DNA from: an uncultured Planktomarina sp.
GTDB lineage: Bacteria > Pseudomonadota > Alphaproteobacteria > Rhodobacterales > Rhodobacteraceae
Direction of reading: 5' to 3'
Length of the DNA stretch: 64,000 bases
Assembly (NCBI GenBank): GCA_943788425.1
Contig: CALSQF010000012.1
Coordinates: 1 to 64,000, forward strand
Below are positions 5,695 through 19,737 of the stretch, piece by piece. Below the pieces are notes generated by a model. The model did not search any database. It was not told the DNA's origin and was given only the letters and a program-made list of their open reading frames with translations. Numbering within the stretch: position 1 is the first letter of the stretch; every line of letters starts with the position of its first letter. The position numbers and the translations under genes were made by a program.

Positions 5695-5730
5695 TCCCCC
5701 AAGTTGCCAGTTGAAAAGAAGGAGCGGCCC

Positions 5731-6658
5731 ATGGCCCTACTCAATTTTGGATCGAAAGACACTGCAGGTGTTGAGATCAACCCGCAAGTAGAAAGCTTTT
5801 TGAAGGATTACTCTATTGAGGTAATGCCACGCACGGCGGAGAAAATTGAAGATTTCCGCGAGCTTCTCCCGGCCGCAACGCGCGTGTACATCGCGCAGAT
5901 TGAAGGCACGCCCATTGAAGACATGGTGGCCACCGCGAAGCGTATCGCATGCGAGGGTTTTACCGTCATGCCGCATTTTCCCCGCGCGGATCATCAAAGA
6001 CGAAGCCACGCTGCGCAATTGGATCGCCATGTACCAGGGCGAAGCTGGCGTCGAACAGGCCTTGCTTCTCGCGGGCGGTGTGACGCAGCCCCACGGAGAT
6101 TACGAAAGCTCCATGCAATTGCTCGAAAGCGGAGCGTTTGGCGAAGCGGGTTTCAAGCGCCTGCATGTGGCCGGGCATCCTGAAGGCAATAAGGACATTG
6201 ATCCCGATGGATCCATGACAAATGTCGATTCGGCTCTGCGCTGGAAGCAGGCATTTTCCGACACATCCGACGCAGATATGGCCATTGCGACACAGTTTTG
6301 TTTTGAGGCTGCCCCCGTGATTGACTGGGCCGATGCTCTGGCGGAACGGGGCATCACTCTGCCGATACATATCGGCGTGGCCGGCCCGGCAAAACTGCAA
6401 ACCTTGATCAAATTTTCAATCGCCTGTGGTGTCGGCGCCTCCCTGCGGGTGCTGCAGCGGCGGGCCAAAGATTTGACCAAATTGCTTTTGCCCTTCACCC
6501 CCGATGAGTTCTTGAGCGATCTTGCGGCCTATAAAGTCGCAAATCCGGATTTTGGCATTTCACATGTCCATTTCTTCCCACTTGGCGGGATTAAAACCAA
6601 TGCCAATTGGGCCATCGAAAACGGCGGCACCTCCGCCACTCCAGCTTCTCAATCCTAA
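5731..6658 (+). pseudogene. Methylenetetrahydrofolate reductase-like protein, split by a +1 frameshift
   Basis: A good AAGGAG site precedes the ATG at 5731. The first frame runs MALLNFGSKD to FTVMPHF and then derails; from about 5983 the next frame continues ARIIKDEATLRNW, LLLAGGVTQPHGDY, GHPEGNKDID to the stop at 6658. Removing one C from the CCCC run at 5980-5983 restores a ~308-residue protein of normal MetF-fold (TIM-barrel) length, reading HFPARIIKDE across the join. The fold carries FAD and interconverts methylene- and methyl-tetrahydrofolate. Upstream and downstream partners are intact. Either a real disabling mutation or a homopolymer sequencing error is possible; conservation of the second half favours a very recent event or an error. 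Confidence 0.85.
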
Positions 6659-6670
6659 GGATTTCCAAAT

Positions 6671-7735
6671 ATGACACGCACTGTTGTAGAGTCAAAAACC
6701 AAGACAGCCATCATCGGCTTTGATGAGCCCTTCTGCGTGATTGGTGAGCGCATCAATCCAACAGGCCGCAAGATCTTAAATGCAGAGCTGGAAGCGGGAG
6801 ATTATTCTCGTGTGGAAGCCGATGCCATTGCCCAAACGGCTGCCGGTGCCACGATCTTGGACATCAACTCCGGTGCCGTCTTCTCAAACAAAATGGCCGA
6901 AGATCCACGCTATGCGGATAATAACTTTGTCGAGCCAACCTTGATGCGCGCCTTGATCGAACGAGTGCAAGCTGTGGTTGACACACCCCTGTGCATCGAC
7001 AGCTCGGTGCCAGGCGCTTTGGAAAATGGCCTGGCCGCCGCCGAAGGCCGCCCACTTCTCAACTCGGTTACAGGAGAAGAAGAGCGGATGGAAATGGTGC
7101 TGCCATTGGTGAAAAAATACAATGTGCCTGTGGTCGCCATTTCCAATGATGACACCGGCATCTCCGAAGACCCTGACGTACGCTTTGCCGTTGCAAAAAA
7201 AATCGTTGAGCGCGCCGCTGACTTTGGCATTCCGGCCCATGACATCGTTGTTGATCCGCTGGTGATGCCCGTAGGCGCAATGGGATCTGCTGGCTTGCAA
7301 GTCTTCACTCTGGTCCGGCGTTTGCGTGAGGAATTGGGTGTGAACACCACCTGCGGAGCATCGAATATCTCCTTCGGCCTGCCCAATCGTCACGGCATCA
7401 ACAATGCCTTCCTGCCGATGGCCATGGCCGCGGGCATGACCTCAGCCATCATGAATCCGGTCGCCTTGCCGGTCAATCAAACCAAGATTGCCGAAAAGAA
7501 AGCCGAGATTGCCGCGGCGGGCATCATCTTGCCAGAGGGTATAGATGATGAAACTTTCGTCACCCTCTTTGGCATGGGATCCATGTCGAGCAAACCCGGC
7601 AAAGAAATGGAAGCCATCCGGGCCGCCAATTTCTTGATGGATTGCGACCCAAGCGGGGCCGCTTGGATCAATTTCAACAAAATTCCTGGCAGTCATGCGG
7701 GTGGTCGCGGTGGCCGCAAGCGCCGTCGGGGTTAA
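6671..7735 (+). CDS. Methyltetrahydrofolate:corrinoid methyltransferase (pterin-binding family)
   Basis: The 354-residue protein has the pterin-binding TIM-barrel signature: VIGERINPTGR near the N terminus, ATILDINSGAV, then CIDSSVPGALE and the loop NSVTGEEERM. The family (AcsE/MeTr-like, related to the MetH folate domain) moves methyl groups between methyl-tetrahydrofolate and a cob(I)amide carried by a separate corrinoid protein. The C terminus is an unusual basic tail, GGRGGRKRRRG. It follows the MetF-like gene by 12 bp, so methyl groups delivered to folate could be oxidised to methylene-folate. No corrinoid protein, MttB-like methyltransferase or RamA-like activase is present in this window, unlike many roseobacter versions of this cluster. 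Confidence 0.9.
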   Translation: MTRTVVESKTKTAIIGFDEPFCVIGERINPTGRKILNAELEAGDYSRVEADAIAQTAAGATILDINSGAVFSNKMAEDPRYADNNFVEPTLMRALIERVQAVVDTPLCIDSSVPGALENGLAAAEGRPLLNSVTGEEERMEMVLPLVKKYNVPVVAISNDDTGISEDPDVRFAVAKKIVERAADFGIPAHDIVVDPLVMPVGAMGSAGLQVFTLVRRLREELGVNTTCGASNISFGLPNRHGINNAFLPMAMAAGMTSAIMNPVALPVNQTKIAEKKAEIAAAGIILPEGIDDETFVTLFGMGSMSSKPGKEMEAIRAANFLMDCDPSGAAWINFNKIPGSHAGGRGGRKRRRG

Positions 7736-10899: not shown

Positions 10900-13800
10900 T
10901 CAAATATCCAGCTTCAGCACCCCGCCCGCCTCGGCTGCTCGGCTTTGGCACAGGATGACAGTGGTTTCGCGCTGCGCCGCCGAGAGCACAAAGTCACGGT
11001 GCTCCACCTCACCGGATAGCACCGTGCATTTGCACACACCGCAGAGCCCGTCCGCACATTTCACATCCACCGGTATCCCTGCGGCGATCAGCGCATCACT
11101 GGCCGATTGCGTGGCAGTGACTGGAATTTTTTGCCCATTCGCCCGCTCAATCTCAAAGGGATGGTTTTCCCACTCCGGCAGCTCCGGCACGGTAAAGAAC
11201 TCAGCATGCAGCGCCGCATCCGGGTAACCAATAGAGCGGGCATGGTTTAAAATGGCGCTCATATAAGCATCTGGCCCACATACATAAATATGCGTCCCGG
11301 CTTCATAGGTCGGCACTTCTCTGGCAATATCAAGGCGCGTGCCCTGATCGGAGTAATGCCGGCTGACCCGATCGGCCCAAGCCAAACCGTCAAATGCGCC
11401 ATCAAAGGCAGCCTTTGGCTTTTGACTGGCTGAATACATCAGACGAAACCGTCCCCCTTTGCGATGAAGCTCATGGGCAAAGGCCAGCATCGGCGTCACA
11501 CCGATACCGCCGCCAAAGAGTAAGGACAGCTTGGCCGAAGGTTCCAATTCAAAATGATTGATAGGTTTGGAAACAAAAACACGCCGGCCGGGCTCAAAAA
11601 TTCGGTGCATCAATTGCGAGCCACCCCGCCCCTCGGGCTCCTGCAGCACTGCGATTTCATAACAGCTGCGATCGGCAGGATCGCCGCACATGGAATATTG
11701 CCGCAAAAATTCGGGCGCGACAACAATGTCCAAATGCGCCCCCGCCGTCCATCGGGGCAAATCCGCGCCATCCATCGCCACAAGCCTATATTTCTTAACC
11801 GCACCCGGCCAATCTTCCACCTCAGCGACAGACATTTGAATGACCGGCGCTTCGTTATCGTTTTGGTAAAGATGCAAGTGATCTCGCGCACCTGTGGCAG
11901 ATTTTTCTTGATAGACCTCTGCTGTGATCATGGCTTGATAGGCCTCAATTCCAGCTTCGCGGTCCATCAGGGCCGGATATGGGAACGGATGGGGTGCCAA
12001 GGGCGCGGGATACACCGCCAAAGTCTGGTCTTCGTACTTCAAATCCAAATCTTTTTGCAAAGATCGAGCATTGATCGGATGGGCTGTGGGGCGATATCCC
12101 CCCTCCTCGGTCAATTCCAAATCCCACCACCATTTTTTGACCGGGTTCAGCTCGCCATGACCGGCCATATCATCCATTTTTGCCAAAACTGGCGCCATCT
12201 GTGGCACGTTCATTGCCGCCCAGCGGAAAGGCGCTTCGGCAAACAACCCCTCAAGGTTCCAAGGGCAGGTTTTCATGCAGCGTCCACACATAGCGCCGCC
12301 CGGGGTGCTGATGCGATAGCTGGCACATTTTTGACTGTCAGATTTCCAAATTTCATAGCCGTTGAACATTAATTTTGGCCCAGCCGTGATTGCCCCTGAG
12401 GGACATTCACGCGCGCATTTATTGCAGCTTTGGCAAAAGCGCTGCAGGCCAAAATCTATCGGCTTGTCATGGGACAGCGGCAGGCTCGTGGTCACCACAC
12501 CCGATTTCAAACGTGGACCCAGAAAGGGGTTAAGGATCACCTCGCCGATACGGCTGACCTCCCCCAAACCAGAGAGCAAAAGCAAGGGCGGTTGCAACAC
12601 CTCACCATCCAACACCGTATGCGCCTTCGCCATATAGCCCAAGTTTCGGATATGTTGCGCAATGATGCCGCCCAAAAGGGAAAACCGCAGATAGGCCCGC
12701 ATGGATTGCGCCACGGAGATCCAATCGTCACCCGAAGCGCCTTCCATCGTTTCAAACCCTTGATCAACAATCATGCTGATGGCCTGATCATGGGGCGGCA
12801 GGATGGGCGCGCCGCGGGCGTCATGGGAATACCACGACCATTCGGGGCAGCGCGACAGGCCGGTGGCATCAATGCCCAGAAAATAACTGGCCCCTTTGAT
12901 GTTATCGGCTGCCACCTCGGGCGCAATCTGTTGCGCATGGGCGGCCGGCTCCCCGTCCTGCAAAAGCACAAAGGCACCGAGCAACCGGCGTTGCGCAGAG
13001 CTGGGCGCAGCCTTGCGCGCGTAGTGACCCGCCGTGGCGCCCTTTTGCAGCGCCGGTCCCATATCGCCAAATTGCGCGCGGGCGAACATATCCGTGCGTT
13101 TGGGCACCCGTGCCACATTCGGCTCATCAATATAGGTCGTGGGGGTCTCAACGCGCTTTAGGGTTTCAAACGGATGGGCACCCTGGGCGTATTCTCGCCG
13201 CGCATAGGGATCATGAGAGCGGCGGCTCGCGCCGCCATGGCGGCCCAAAGTCCAATCCAGCCCCATAAGGGCGGATTGGGGTTGATCAGCGGCCAAAGGC
13301 AAATCCGTTGCCAGCGCCATATCGGTGGTGACGGCAGCCAAACCAAATCTTTGACCCAACCAAGGATGGGTGATTTCATCACCCGCCACCTGCGCCAAGC
13401 CAGCCTTCACCGCCAAGCGGGCCAAGTCCACATCACAGGTGGTGGCCGAATGCGCCCGCGCACTGTACCCCAAAATTCGAATATAATTGGCCAAAACCGT
13501 GGCGGTTTCTGTCCCCAGAACGGCCGCGCGTTCGGCCTGCGCGTCTTGCACCCAATCGCAGCCGATCTCCCCACGTCTCGGATCCCGCCGATAGGCCACC
13601 AAAAAGACCAAAGCATATGTATGGTGATCCATTGGCTGGGGCTTGGCCGTCATGCTTTCTCTCAAATCCGCCATGATCATATCAATGCCAGCGGCCAAAG
13701 TCTTGGTTTGGCGGGTTTGCAGAGCATGGGACAGGCGATCAATTTGCGGATTGCGCCGCGCAGCTGCCAACCTGTCCATCTGGCCCAAAGGCGCTATGCC

Positions 13801-14100
13801 AACCATGGAGATATCATTAAAATAAGCGAAGGATTTGAGGTGACGGGAGCGCTCTTGCAGGTCCTCGGGAATTTCCGAGGGCGCTTGATTTTGCGGGCCA
13901 TCGCGCACCGCATCCATCATGGCTTGAAATTCCGCCATCGCGGGCACCAAGCTGGCACTGCCTGCGGGCCGCTGAAAGGACAGATCCGGCGATGGGGCAA
14001 GCCCATCAAGATCGGGCATATGCGCGCTACGTTTCAAAATTTCCGTAGGAAAGCGCCCCATATGCACTGGGCGATTGCGATCTGAAAACAGCTTAGCCAT
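10900..14100 (-). CDS. Self-sufficient (non-respiratory) reductive dehalogenase fused to flavin/2Fe-2S reductase
   Basis: The 1066-residue protein has, in order: a degenerate first dehalogenase-like half (about 90-280); a second, corrinoid-domain half (about 400-550); two 4Fe-4S ferredoxin motifs (C556, C559, C562, C566-P; C592, C605, C608, C612-P); a phthalate-oxygenase-reductase-type unit with RQYSMCGDP (800-808) for flavin and GGGIGVTP (863-870) for nicotinamide; and a C-terminal plant-type 2Fe-2S domain (C1015, C1020, C1023, C1051). This is the layout of catabolic reductive dehalogenases such as BhbA, which use cobalamin and NAD(P)H to remove halogen from haloaromatics. There is no Tat signal and no membrane anchor gene, so it should be cytosolic. 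It overlaps the upstream xdhC by 8 bp. The substrate is unknown. Confidence 0.93.
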   Translation of the reverse strand: MAKLFSDRNRPVHMGRFPTEILKRSAHMPDLDGLAPSPDLSFQRPAGSASLVPAMAEFQAMMDAVRDGPQNQAPSEIPEDLQERSRHLKSFAYFNDISMVGIAPLGQMDRLAAARRNPQIDRLSHALQTRQTKTLAAGIDMIMADLRESMTAKPQPMDHHTYALVFLVAYRRDPRRGEIGCDWVQDAQAERAAVLGTETATVLANYIRILGYSARAHSATTCDVDLARLAVKAGLAQVAGDEITHPWLGQRFGLAAVTTDMALATDLPLAADQPQSALMGLDWTLGRHGGASRRSHDPYARREYAQGAHPFETLKRVETPTTYIDEPNVARVPKRTDMFARAQFGDMGPALQKGATAGHYARKAAPSSAQRRLLGAFVLLQDGEPAAHAQQIAPEVAADNIKGASYFLGIDATGLSRCPEWSWYSHDARGAPILPPHDQAISMIVDQGFETMEGASGDDWISVAQSMRAYLRFSLLGGIIAQHIRNLGYMAKAHTVLDGEVLQPPLLLLSGLGEVSRIGEVILNPFLGPRLKSGVVTTSLPLSHDKPIDFGLQRFCQSCNKCARECPSGAITAGPKLMFNGYEIWKSDSQKCASYRISTPGGAMCGRCMKTCPWNLEGLFAEAPFRWAAMNVPQMAPVLAKMDDMAGHGELNPVKKWWWDLELTEEGGYRPTAHPINARSLQKDLDLKYEDQTLAVYPAPLAPHPFPYPALMDREAGIEAYQAMITAEVYQEKSATGARDHLHLYQNDNEAPVIQMSVAEVEDWPGAVKKYRLVAMDGADLPRWTAGAHLDIVVAPEFLRQYSMCGDPADRSCYEIAVLQEPEGRGGSQLMHRIFEPGRRVFVSKPINHFELEPSAKLSLLFGGGIGVTPMLAFAHELHRKGGRFRLMYSASQKPKAAFDGAFDGLAWADRVSRHYSDQGTRLDIAREVPTYEAGTHIYVCGPDAYMSAILNHARSIGYPDAALHAEFFTVPELPEWENHPFEIERANGQKIPVTATQSASDALIAAGIPVDVKCADGLCGVCKCTVLSGEVEHRDFVLSAAQRETTVILCQSRAAEAGGVLKLDI

Positions 14101-15100
14101 GGGCGCGTCCTCTAAGTTTTGCTGTCATTGCCGCCAAAATGGACAGGGCAATCTCTGCCGGTGTGCGGCTGCCGATGTCGAGCCCCACCGGCCCTTGAAT
14201 TCGGGCAAACTGCGCCGCGCTCACCCCCAGCTCCAGCATGGACTGGCGACGCTTGGCATGGGTCCGGGTGGATCCCAATGCCCCGATATAGAATGCATCG
14301 CTTGCAACCGCGTGTTGCAACGCGGGCGTGTCCATTTTGGGATCATGCGTCAGAGTCACAAACGCTGTGCGCCCATCGAGCACCAGTCTGGCCAAAGCCT
14401 CCTCTGGCCAGTCGACAATCACCTCATGCCCATCAAAACGGGCCGGGCTTGCGAAACTGTCGCGTGGATCAATGATGGTCACGAGATAGCCCGCCATCTG
14501 CGCCATTGGGGCCAAATATTGCGCAATATGCACCGCGCCAATGATCACCAAGCGCAGGGGCACGGTTTGGACATAGGTGAAGACATCCCCCGCAAGCCCG
14601 CCACCTGACTCAAAAACGGTAAGGTCGGTTTGCGCCAAAATCAATTCGCGCTGCCAGCTGGACAAGTCCAACCTCACTGCAATGGGCTGTCGGGCAGATT
14701 GCGCTTCAACAAGACGCTCCAGCATGGCCGTATCCACACCCTGACCCTGCCCCACGGGCTCGACCACCAGTTCAATCTCACCGCCACAGGCCAGCCCGAT
14801 CGCGAAAGCATCCGCATCCGCAACCCCGTAGCGCAGGCGTCGACACTGCCCCGCCTCCAATGCCTCCAGCGCCTCCAAGACCACCGCGCCTTCAACGCAG
14901 CCGCCTGAAACAGACCCGTGAAAGCTGCCATCTGCGCAAATCAACATCTGAGCGCCAACGGGCCGAGGCGCAGATCCCCATGTGGCCATAACCGTCGCCA
15001 GCGCCACAGGCTGTCCCTGCCGGTGCAGCCGCAAGGCCATTGCTGTCATCTCTTCTGCGACTGCCATTTCAACGGCCCCATTGTTTTCCAAATAGCACAT
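14093..15100 (-). CDS. XdhC/CoxI family protein
   Basis: The 335-residue protein combines an N-terminal XdhC-CoxI domain (ALATVMATWGSAPRPVG, then SGGCVEGAVV) with a C-terminal Rossmann domain (LVIIGAVHIAQYLAPMA, and FVTLTHDPKMD near the end). XdhC proteins bind molybdenum cofactor and help insert or sulfurate it in xanthine dehydrogenase-type enzymes. No molybdenum hydroxylase lies in this window. Instead the gene overlaps the reductive dehalogenase by 8 bp, so both are probably translated together. An alternative start (ATG at 15067) would drop 11 residues. Its partner here is either distant or not a molybdoenzyme; that is open. Confidence 0.88.
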   Translation of the reverse strand: MCYLENNGAVEMAVAEEMTAMALRLHRQGQPVALATVMATWGSAPRPVGAQMLICADGSFHGSVSGGCVEGAVVLEALEALEAGQCRRLRYGVADADAFAIGLACGGEIELVVEPVGQGQGVDTAMLERLVEAQSARQPIAVRLDLSSWQRELILAQTDLTVFESGGGLAGDVFTYVQTVPLRLVIIGAVHIAQYLAPMAQMAGYLVTIIDPRDSFASPARFDGHEVIVDWPEEALARLVLDGRTAFVTLTHDPKMDTPALQHAVASDAFYIGALGSTRTHAKRRQSMLELGVSAAQFARIQGPVGLDIGSRTPAEIALSILAAMTAKLRGRAHG

Positions 15101-16071: not shown

Positions 16072-16308
16072 AACTTGACCCTTTGTAAGCAATGCGGGCC
16101 AGCCGCCCTTGGCGCATTTGTGCGGCTGGTTTTGGCAAATTGCAACAGCATAAGTCACCTCAGAGGTTCAGGCAGCCCCCCATGCCGCCCAGCCTATGGC
16201 AACAAAGCGCCATGGCTATAAAATTACAGATTTGTTCCAAAACCTTATTGCCTAATGGCGGAGAGCCATGCACATTCACCATCTCAAAATACAAGACAGG
16301 AGGTCCAA

Positions 16309-17049
16309 ATGGGACGACTTTCAGGAAAACGCGCTTTGGTAACCGCCGCAGGACAAGGCATTGGCAGAGCCACCGCTTTGGCCATGGCCGCTGAAGGCGC
16401 CAAAGTCTTTGCCACAGACATAAATCCTGAGACTTTGGCTGAGGTGCAAAGTGCCAGCACCGGGCAAATGGAAACCTATGTGCTCGACGTGCTTGACGCG
16501 ACCTCAACCCGTGAGGGCATCGACCGCGCGCAGCCAGATATTTTGTTTAATGGCGCGGGGTTTGTGCATCACGGGACCATAAGCAATGCCACGGAAGATG
16601 AATGGGAGTTTGCATTCAACCTCAATGTCCGCTCGATGATGCGCACCATCCAAGCTGCGCTACCGGGCATGCTGGAACGTGGTGGCGGCTCGATTATCAA
16701 TATGTCCTCTGCCTGTTCCTCTATTATTGGCGCTCCCAATCGCTTTATCTACGGCACAACCAAAGCGGCCGTGATCGGCCTGACCAAATCCGTGGCCATT
16801 GATTACATCAAACAGGGGATTCGCTGTAATGCAATTTGTCCCGGCACAGTTGAAAGCCCCTCTCTACATGACCGCCTGCGGTCCACTGGAGATGAGGTGC
16901 AAGCCATGCAAGACTTTGTCGCCCGCCAACCCATGGGCCGCATTGGCACAGCCGAAGAAATAGCAGCCCTTGCAGTTTACCTAGGATCGGATGAAAGTGC
17001 CTTCACGACCGCCACAACACAGGTCATTGATGGCGGCTGGTCAAACTAA
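16309..17049 (+). CDS. Short-chain dehydrogenase, likely 2-keto-3-deoxy-sugar-acid 4-dehydrogenase
   Basis: The 246-residue classical SDR has cofactor loop AAGQGIGRA (residues 13-21), D37 in FATDINP suggesting NAD preference, NGAG at 81-84, serines at 133-134 and the catalytic Y148-GTT-K152. Overall it resembles the BDH2/LRA5-like group, including 2-keto-3-deoxy-L-rhamnonate or L-fuconate 4-dehydrogenases. The next two genes, an IlvD/Edd dehydratase and an FAH hydrolase, supply the steps before and after that reaction, which supports the call. A strong AGGAGG site precedes the ATG. The sugar (rhamnose, fucose or another) cannot be assigned from sequence. Confidence 0.85.
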
Positions 17050-17090
17050 TCACTGGCGACCAAAACTTTAACTTAACGAGGACGATCCGC

Positions 17091-18878
17091 GTGTCAGATA
17101 TCAAACCGAAATTGCGATCCCAACAGTGGTTCAACAATCCCGACAATCAAGAGATGACAGCGCTCTATCTCGAACGCTATCTCAACTACGGTCTGACACG
17201 CCACGAGCTGCAATCGGGCAAGCCTATCATTGGCATTGCCCAGACCGGCAGCGACCTTAGCCCCTGCAATCGCCACCATATTGAACTGTCCAAACGGGTG
17301 CGTGATGGGGTCATTGCCGCCGGCGGCACGGTGATTGAAATTCCAGTGCATCCCATTCAGGAAACCGGCAAACGCCCAACGGCCATGTTGGACAGAAACC
17401 TGGCCTATCTGTCTTTGGTGGAAACCCTATTTGGTTATCCGATTGATGGGGTTGTGCTGAATATCGGCTGTGACAAAACCACCCCGGCTTTGTTGATGGC
17501 GGCCGCGACCGTCAATATTCCTGCCATTGCCCTATCCGTTGGCCCAATGCTCAACGGGTGGTTCGGCGGCAAGCGCACTGGCTCCGGCACGATCGTCTGG
17601 AAGGCCCGCGAGATGCAGGCCGCAGGTGAAATCGATGATGACGGCTTTATGGATATGGTGGCCTCCTCAACGCCTTCTGTTGGCTATTGCAACTCCATGG
17701 GCACCGCCACGACGATGAACTCCCTGGCCGAGGGGCTTGGTATGCAATTGCCCGGCTCTGCCGCCATCCCAGCGCCCTATCGAGAGCGCGGGCAGATCAG
17801 CTATGAAACCGGGCTGCGGATTGTCGATATGGTGCATGAAGATCTGCGACCTGACCGCATCATGACCCGCGAAGCCTTTGAGAACGCCATCGTGATCAAT
17901 TCAGCCATCGGCGGCTCTACCAATGCGCCAATTCACCTAAACGGCATTGCCAAACATCTTGGTGTGGCCTTGAACAATGATGATTGGCAAAAGCTCGGCC
18001 ATAAGGTGCCGCTTTTGGTCAACCTGCAACCAGCGGGCGAATATCTTGGCGAAGATTACCACCGGGCCGGTGGCGTGCCGGCGGTGGTCGGCGAATTGCT
18101 CGCCGCAGGGCTGCTGCCGCACCCGAATATCCTAACTGCCAATGGCAAAACCATTGCTGAGAATTGCCAAGATTGCCGCAGCACCAATACCAATGTGATC
18201 AAGCAGGTCACAGCGCCACTGGTTGATGCTGCCGGCTTTATCAATCTGAAAGGCAATCTGTTCGACAGCGCGATCATGAAAACTTCAGTGATCTCACAAG
18301 AGTTTCGCAGACGCTACCTGTCTGATCCGGCCAACCCAAATTGCTTTGACGGGCGTGCCATCGTCTTCGACGGGCCGGAAGACTTCCACCGTGGCATTGA
18401 TGATCCAAGCCTTAACATCGATGAGACCTGCGTCTTAATCATGCGCGGCGCCGGACCAATTGGCTATCCCGGCGGGGCGGAGGTCGTAAATATGCGCCCG
18501 CCGTCCTATCTTTTGACCAAGGGCATCACCTCTCTGCCCTGTTTGGGCGATGGGCGGCAATCGGGCACCTCTGGATCACCTTCAATCCTAAACGCCTCAC
18601 CGGAAGCGGCGGATGGTGGCGGCTTGGGTCTGGTGCAAACTGGCGATATGATCCGTATTAATCTGAATGCATGCACCGCCGATATGCTGGTTGAACCGGC
18701 CGAGCTTGAGCGCCGCAGGGCCGCTCTTGGCACGCGTCCCTTCACCCCTGACAGCCAAACCCCTTGGCAAGAATTGTTCCGCGAAAAAGTCAGACCCTTC
18801 TCAGAAGGCATGACTCTAGACGGGGCGCATGAATATCAAGACATCGCGCGCAAACATATGCCGCGTGACAACCACTAG
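17091..18878 (+). CDS. IlvD/Edd family sugar-acid dehydratase (L-arabinonate / xylonate type)
   Basis: The 595-residue protein starts at a GTG with an ACGAGGA site. Three cysteines, C59 (SPCN), C127 (IGCDK) and C200 (GYCNSMG), are placed like the 2Fe-2S ligands of L-arabinonate dehydratases, and a GTSGSPS motif (492-498) holds the likely catalytic serine region. These features point to the sugar-acid subgroup rather than the amino-acid enzyme dihydroxy-acid dehydratase. It would convert an aldonic acid to its 2-keto-3-deoxy acid. It lies 41 bp after the SDR and 10 bp before the FAH hydrolase, so the three form one operon. Confidence 0.88.
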
Positions 18879-18888
18879 GAGTTTTTTT

Positions 18889-19737
18889 ATGAAATTAGTC
18901 CGCTATGGCGACATTGGCGCAGAGCGCCCCGGTTTGATCGATCGCGAAGGCATGCTGCGCGACCTTTCAGATCATGTGACAGATATCAACGGAAGCGTGC
19001 TCGGCGATGCGGCCTTGGCCCGCCTACGGGCGCTGGATCCAAGCGCCTTGCCTGCGGTTACCGGGTCACCGCGCCTAGGCCCAGTTGTGGGCGATATCGG
19101 CAAGTTTCTCTGCATCGGTTTGAATTATTCCGACCACGCGGCAGAAACCGGAGCCGCCATCCCTGAACATCCCATTTTGTTTTTCAAAGCCAATTCCGCC
19201 ATCGTCGGCGCCAATGATGATGTGGTAATGCCCCGCGGCTCGACCCATACCGATTGGGAAGTAGAACTTGGCGTGGTAATTGGCACAGCGGCAAAATATG
19301 TCAGCGAAGACGAGGCTTTGAACCATGTGGCCGGCTATTGCATCGTGAACGATGTGTCAGAGCGGCACTTTCAAACGCAGCTGACCGGGCAATGGACCAA
19401 GGGCAAAAGCTGTGACACCTTCGGCCCCACCGGCCCCTATCTCGTCACGCGCGATGAAATTGCCAATCCGCAGGCTCTCAACATGTCACTGGATGTGAAC
19501 GGCAAACGCATGCAAACCGGCAATACGGCGACCATGATCTTCACGGTCGCGCAAATTATCAGCCACCTGTCTCACCTCATGACGCTCCACCCCGGAGATG
19601 TCATCACCACCGGAACCCCTCCGGGCGTGGGGATGGGCATGAAACCGGAGCCGGTCTACCTCAAGCCCGGCGATGTGATGGAGCTTGAAATCTCTGGCCT
19701 GGGCAAGCAGCGCCAAACCGTGCGCCAAGACGCATAA
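18889..19737 (+). CDS. Fumarylacetoacetate hydrolase family protein, likely diketo-acid hydrolase
   Basis: The 282-residue protein has the FAH fold signature FLCIGLNYSDHAAETG (73-88) and the metal ligands E124 and E126 (in TDWEVELG) and D155 (in VNDVSER). The late motif VITTGTPPGVGMGMKP is also typical. Family members cleave C-C bonds of diketo acids with Mg2+. In non-phosphorylative rhamnose and fucose routes, a close relative hydrolyses 2,4-diketo-3-deoxy acids to pyruvate and lactate; the neighbouring SDR and dehydratase fit that scheme. An AGGAG site at 18877-18881 fixes the ATG. The alternative is acylpyruvase activity, common in this family. Confidence 0.9.
   Translation: MKLVRYGDIGAERPGLIDREGMLRDLSDHVTDINGSVLGDAALARLRALDPSALPAVTGSPRLGPVVGDIGKFLCIGLNYSDHAAETGAAIPEHPILFFKANSAIVGANDDVVMPRGSTHTDWEVELGVVIGTAAKYVSEDEALNHVAGYCIVNDVSERHFQTQLTGQWTKGKSCDTFGPTGPYLVTRDEIANPQALNMSLDVNGKRMQTGNTATMIFTVAQIISHLSHLMTLHPGDVITTGTPPGVGMGMKPEPVYLKPGDVMELEISGLGKQRQTVRQDA

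Follow-up and report, generated by a model that had tools for sequence, protein, structure and literature searches.

Does the 1066-residue protein encoded at positions 10900 to 14100 of this DNA dehalogenate and, if so, which compounds would it act on? The window, that is, the whole stretch of 64,000 nucleotides analysed here, comes from an uncultured Planktomarina sp., and a first-pass annotation had read this chain as a cytosolic, self-sufficient reductive dehalogenase with a substrate that is not known. According to our analysis, the protein very probably belongs to the BhbA/JtRdhA type of catabolic reductive dehalogenase, a cytosolic and self-sufficient enzyme, and its likely substrates are bromo- or iodo-substituted 4-hydroxybenzoate-like compounds or simple phenols. 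The gene and its parts are as follows.

10900..14100, minus strand: fused rdh gene, an ATG-initiated open reading frame of 1066 aa with an RdhA part and a phthalate-dioxygenase-reductase module
13630..13767, minus strand: insert, residues 112-157, from the alignment with NpRdhA, BhbA and three other fusions
11920..13623, minus strand: RdhA core, the NpRdhA-aligned part (residues 160-727), with Y470, K532 and R596 as catalytic residues
12265..12435, minus strand: two 4Fe-4S cluster motifs, residues 556-612, from PF12838, PF13484 and the cysteine positions
11191..11844, minus strand: flavin/NAD(P)H reductase domain, residues ~753-970, matching 2pia and the P450-PDR fusions 6kbh and 6laa
10936..11136, minus strand: plant-type 2Fe-2S ferredoxin domain, residues 989-1055 (PF00111, 36.8 bits, cutoff 21)

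The window protein is an intact RdhA-reductase fusion, and the match is far beyond chance. It passes the NCBIfam reductive dehalogenase model TIGR02486 with 200.4 bits (cutoff 160.35), close to the 203.3 bits of BhbA, which was used as a control. In a phmmer search of solved structures, NpRdhA (4ras) was the top match (E 4.6e-149, residues 3-111 and 159-743), while the C-terminal third matched 2pia, a phthalate dioxygenase reductase (E 6.2e-45), as well as P450-reductase fusions. The cysteines are arranged as C556-X2-C559-X2-C562-X3-C566, C592-X12-C605-X2-C608-X3-C612 and C1015-X4-C1020-X2-C1023-X27-C1051, patterns that we take to be two 4Fe-4S motifs and one 2Fe-2S motif; the eight 4Fe-4S cysteines are invariant in a 38-row alignment of relatives. 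RQYS at 800, GGGIGVTP at 863 and CGP at 941 are presumably the flavin and nicotinamide motifs. Thus, the corrinoid-type core, the two 4Fe-4S clusters (C556-C566 and C592-C612), the flavin/nicotinamide reductase and the C-terminal 2Fe-2S ferredoxin described in the first-pass annotation are all borne out. The same applies to its claims that a Tat signal and an rdhB anchor are lacking: no Tat motif was seen by eye, with no RR pair N-terminal of residue 115, and the genes adjacent to rdh are an AlkZ-like gene and xdhC, not rdhB. PF13486, which had been suggested as a test, would have misled. Even with E values up to 1 allowed, it hit neither the window protein nor BhbA, a known debrominase; because BhbA fails too, the model misses this subfamily and its silence does not exclude RdhA membership.

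Fold comparison gave the same picture. An AlphaFold2 model built from 34 rows served to compare folds but not to judge the shape of the pocket; it is of moderate confidence (mean pLDDT 68.5, pTM 0.58), with pLDDT below 50 in the Fe-S stretch 550-620 and in parts of the corrinoid-binding stretch. Foldseek against the PDB placed NpRdhA chains at ranks 1-14 (best E 5.4e-46), followed by P450-PDR fusions, 7ylr and 2pia.

The window protein is a member of the established BhbA/JtRdhA enzyme class, which is common in its relatives. JtRdhA (WP_104007082), from the marine Jhaorihella thermophila, has the same fusion order, no Tat signal and the catalytic Y/K/R, and it is an assayed enzyme. According to PMC10463259, JtRdhA turns over ortho-bromo and iodo phenols with NADPH, with and without air, the chlorinated analogues tested act only as inhibitors with no turnover, and the authors call it the sole fusion of its kind studied in detail. 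The same paper gives its identity to NpRdhA as ~39%, against 42.7% over the core for the window protein, describes a fusion-specific insert, and lists a Ruegeria pomeroyi RdhA in a tree legend. The 46-residue insert of the window protein (112-157), which is not in NpRdhA and is found in BhbA and the three other fusions aligned, probably matches that of JtRdhA. BhbA (Comamonas sp. 7D-2 plasmid pBHB, WP_015585978.1; 1071 aa) has the domain order and the catalytic residues of the window protein; its gene has ligA nearby, and the plasmid is typed as conjugative. NpRdhA from Nitratireductor pacificus (PDB 4ras, 6zxu, 6zxx) shares the RdhA core and the catalytic Y/K/R but has neither the fused reductase module nor the insert.

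A scan of genome contigs returned at least 593 stretches, with 587 confirmed relatives, and from these we took the best 80 as loci (L001-L080). Among these best 80 of at least 587 relatives, the nearest is Rhodobacteraceae bacterium IMCC1909 (98%), and Planktomarina or Rhodobacteraceae MAGs come next (92-93%). Three further members of the Planktomarina group follow at 76-81%, and many Rhodobacterales, some Hyphomicrobiales and one MAG labelled Granulosicoccaceae at 61-66%. In a plasmid collection, eight records match 80% or more of the query at a single site. To estimate frequency in the family, two candidates per genome were scored in 296 evenly drawn genomes (at least 90% completeness requested, the window's own genome included). 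A full-length copy (match of at least 990 residues) is present in at least 119 of them, and at least a large fused stretch in at least 122; copies in two genomes look broken or split (G237, two pieces with one internal stop; G090, two pieces). The phylogeny with BhbA and NpRdhA that had been suggested places the window protein in a six-row Planktomarina-type clade (100/100) inside a marine fusion group, and BhbA and the Nitratireductor plasmid copy in a separate clade. A very distant outgroup was left out of this tree, where NpRdhA is a very long branch and the root is unsure. Over the core, identity to the window protein is 42.7% for NpRdhA (562 positions), 54.3% for Nitratireductor OM-1, 55.0% for BhbA, 59.4% for Aminobacter and 72.5% for the fused copy of Roseobacter sp. 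MED193 (L056).

We infer the chemistry, the electron path and the substrate class from the characterised relatives. S422, M423, Y426, K488 and R552 of NpRdhA align with S466, M467, Y470, K532 and R596 of the window protein, and this set is identical in all 46 sequences aligned for the tree, namely NpRdhA and 45 fusions. In NpRdhA, according to PMC7565698, Y426 is the proposed proton donor and the substrate hydroxyl is contacted by S422, K488 and R552. By analogy, the flavin of the reductase module would be reduced by NAD(P)H and would hand on electrons one at a time, first to the C-terminal 2Fe-2S cluster, then to the two 4Fe-4S clusters and finally to cobalamin, bound base-off in the core's second half. 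The substrate, a phenol with an ortho halogen, would be placed so that the halogen lies above the cobalt while S466, K532 and R596 hold the phenolate; Y470 would then donate a proton, and the halide and the dehalogenated phenol would be released. The earlier statement that the substrate is not known stands only in part: because JtRdhA debrominates and de-iodinates ortho-halophenols (PMC10463259), the substrate class is not wholly unknown. Likely substrates would be brominated (and iodinated) 4-hydroxybenzoate-like compounds or simple bromophenols of marine origin, and the window protein is probably an NAD(P)H-driven, oxygen-tolerant debrominase.

Further information about the substrate was sought in the pocket. 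The NpRdhA positions 290, 291, 307, 310, 311, 419 and 452, chosen as lining the active site or its entrance, correspond to M338, F339, A355, Y360, A361, V463 and V496, the alignment being loose around NpRdhA 307-311 and the window residues there least certain. In 43 rows of the marine clade (the window, 33 loci, eight family genomes and Aminobacter), A355, Y360 and V496 occur without exception and V463 in 40 (C in two, A in one); at position 338, M (36 rows) predominates over F (four) and L (three). BhbA and Nitratireductor OM-1 carry F, F, S, S, V, S and A at the seven positions, so that BhbA has S, S, S and A against A355, Y360, V463 and V496 of the window protein. The residues facing the second bromine in NpRdhA also differ in the alignment, a point against our main reading. 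The marine clade thus appears to have its own conserved pocket residues, unlike those of BhbA and NpRdhA, and JtRdhA may share them, which would lessen the novelty.

These differences from NpRdhA and BhbA at several positions could also mean that an enzyme of the same class has a chlorinated aromatic or a non-phenolic organohalide as its natural substrate, and NpRdhA is reported to act on chlorinated compounds where JtRdhA does not (PMC10463259). We consider this unlikely, as the phenolate-binding S/K/R set is conserved and JtRdhA turned over bromo and iodo substrates only. A brominated or iodinated phenol is our preferred substrate, and its product may enter the PobA reaction and then protocatechuate 4,5-cleavage. 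In the host genome (2.54 Mb, 93% complete), CobN, PobA and LigA each score above cutoff, all on contigs other than that of rdh, and PcaH of the 3,4-cleavage route had no match. PobA and LigA without PcaH fit a route from 4-hydroxybenzoate through protocatechuate to 4,5-cleavage, comparable to the lig genes near BhbA on pBHB.

The same genome holds another RdhA.

L082:1489-2727 (contig C3), minus strand: second, short unfused RdhA of 412 aa (TIGR02486, 177.7 bits)

This protein scores 27.8 bits against PF13486, and in the alignment it has R and W in place of K488 and R552 of NpRdhA. The Fe-S motifs of this short RdhA, CDICTKCADACP and CAICMRVCP, are identical to the ones that PMC13101508 gives for Ros_A3X954, a debrominase of Roseobacter sp. 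MED193. Like the window protein, Ros_A3X954 is a roseobacter catabolic RdhA with no Tat signal, but it is short and unfused, and its printed motifs resemble the second RdhA of the host and not the window protein. According to the same paper, the short RdhA of Roseobacter sp. MED193, a strain that also has the fused copy mentioned above, has been assayed, and bhbA homologues are widespread in the Roseobacter clade. Within the limited literature collection searched, Planktomarina (including Planktomarina temperata) occurred together with dehalogenase in reference-list mentions only.

The neighbourhood of rdh raises a different question, whether the gene upstream belongs to the dehalogenase.

14093..15100, minus strand: XdhC/CoxF-type gene (xdhC) upstream of rdh (PF13478, PF02625)

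This xdhC overlaps the rdh start by 8 bases, and the AlkZ-like gene lies 14 bases from rdh. xdhC directly precedes rdh in five of the seven Planktomarina-type loci (L001-L007), the other two (L003, L007) beginning inside rdh and holding no upstream sequence, and also in the same-genus genome G040, where it was recognised by its sequence start and place. Such an arrangement could suggest a functional unit in which the XdhC-type protein matures or serves the dehalogenase. We regard this as very improbable, since xdhC ends the cox set of both L004 and L005 (pgdh, coxG, coxS, coxL, coxM, coxD, coxE, xdhC, rdh), the cox names being assigned by similarity and by the gene order usual in cox operons. 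The genes pgdh, xdhC and rdh directly follow one another in the window, with no cox genes between them, and coxS-L-M-D-E and a flanking gene of L005 have close matches on another contig of the window's genome (coxL 93% identical, motif AYRGAGR); coxG of L005 had no match in the stretches of that genome searched. Moreover, full-length RdhA is present in the 73 loci L008-L080, where xdhC had no match at E 1e-15 (in some of these loci the contig breaks off near rdh). A cox operon with no xdhC beside it lies at L133:5688-12433; its coxL is 93% identical to that of L005 and has the motif AYRGAGR, which we take to be a form-II signature. The CoxL model TIGR02416 was not passed by the window's genome (best 652.8 bits, cutoff 991.15), which also has two XdhC-like genes that are more distant. 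To explain all this most simply, the cox operon would have changed place within the Planktomarina group, in either direction, while the maturation gene xdhC stayed beside rdh. Its product would then serve the relocated Mo enzyme in trans, and xdhC is probably a remnant of the relocated operon with no part in dehalogenation. We judge it most likely to be a stranded gene and not to act together with rdh.

No conserved rdh operon was found across the family: the largest neighbour cluster comprised 10 of the 80 loci, 53 of which reach at least 8 kb on both sides of rdh. Among the nine neighbours scanned in the window, neither a dehalogenation partner nor a ring-cleavage gene was recognised; they include an HpaI-type aldolase and an FAH hydrolase with HpaG-type matches, all below the curated Hpa cutoffs. 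Like the lack of a conserved operon, this counts against the proposed role. No cobalamin riboswitch reached the gathering threshold near rdh, a tRNA being the only Rfam match in the window. On plasmids, the Aminobacter copy has TRAP transporter and MarR genes annotated beside it, and that of Nitratireductor sp. OM-1 has pobA and a gene for an extradiol dioxygenase nearby, which, like ligA near BhbA, speaks for our main reading.

Some other genes of these regions deserve mention. A gene resembling methyltetrahydrofolate:corrinoid methyltransferases lies at 6671-7735, within ~5 kb of rdh; such a gene is found downstream of rdh in five Planktomarina-type loci and, in other arrangements, upstream of it in L017, L021, L045, L048 and L069 (Marivita and other bins). 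Three Ruegeria loci (L030, L040, L043) have a CoxS-like 2Fe-2S gene ~1 kb after rdh, near 14000-14700, a second rdh neighbourhood with a Mo-hydroxylase gene. A metF-like gene at 5695-6658 of the window changes frame near 5978-5982 and so falls into two parts, through either a sequencing error or a real break; it is a single frame in the same-genus G040 (L132) and intact in relatives. Finally, 16255-19737 is a probable sugar-acid cluster with an SDR, an IlvD/EDD dehydratase (PRK13017, 998.8 bits) and an FAH hydrolase near the 2,4-didehydro-3-deoxy-L-rhamnonate hydrolase model (430.7 bits, cutoff 500).

The last alternative, a QueG-like or other corrinoid reductase with no dehalogenation, draws on a weak TIGR00276 match and on QueG and RdhA forming one class of cobalamin enzymes (PMC10463259), and we reject it as extremely unlikely because the match amounts to 23.8 bits with a cutoff of 200, against the score above cutoff for the reductive dehalogenase model, and because NpRdhA is the best solved match by both sequence and fold; the better fit to epoxyqueuosine reductase that had been named as a possible refutation was not found.

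In summary, our results point to a probable debrominase whose value lies in ecology and substrate range and not in mechanism, because the enzyme class is already established. The new details are small: an apparently stranded xdhC and the pocket residues that seem proper to the marine clade. Planktomarina is abundant in seawater, and a debrominase in an apparently pelagic roseobacter lineage with CobN would tie B12 supply to seawater organobromine turnover. It is tempting to propose, though only tentatively, that the marine pocket is tuned to one natural marine organobromine. On this reading, aerobic B12-dependent debromination would be a routine process of the surface ocean, with copies carried by at least 119 of 296 sampled family genomes and by a Planktomarina-type pelagic roseobacter.
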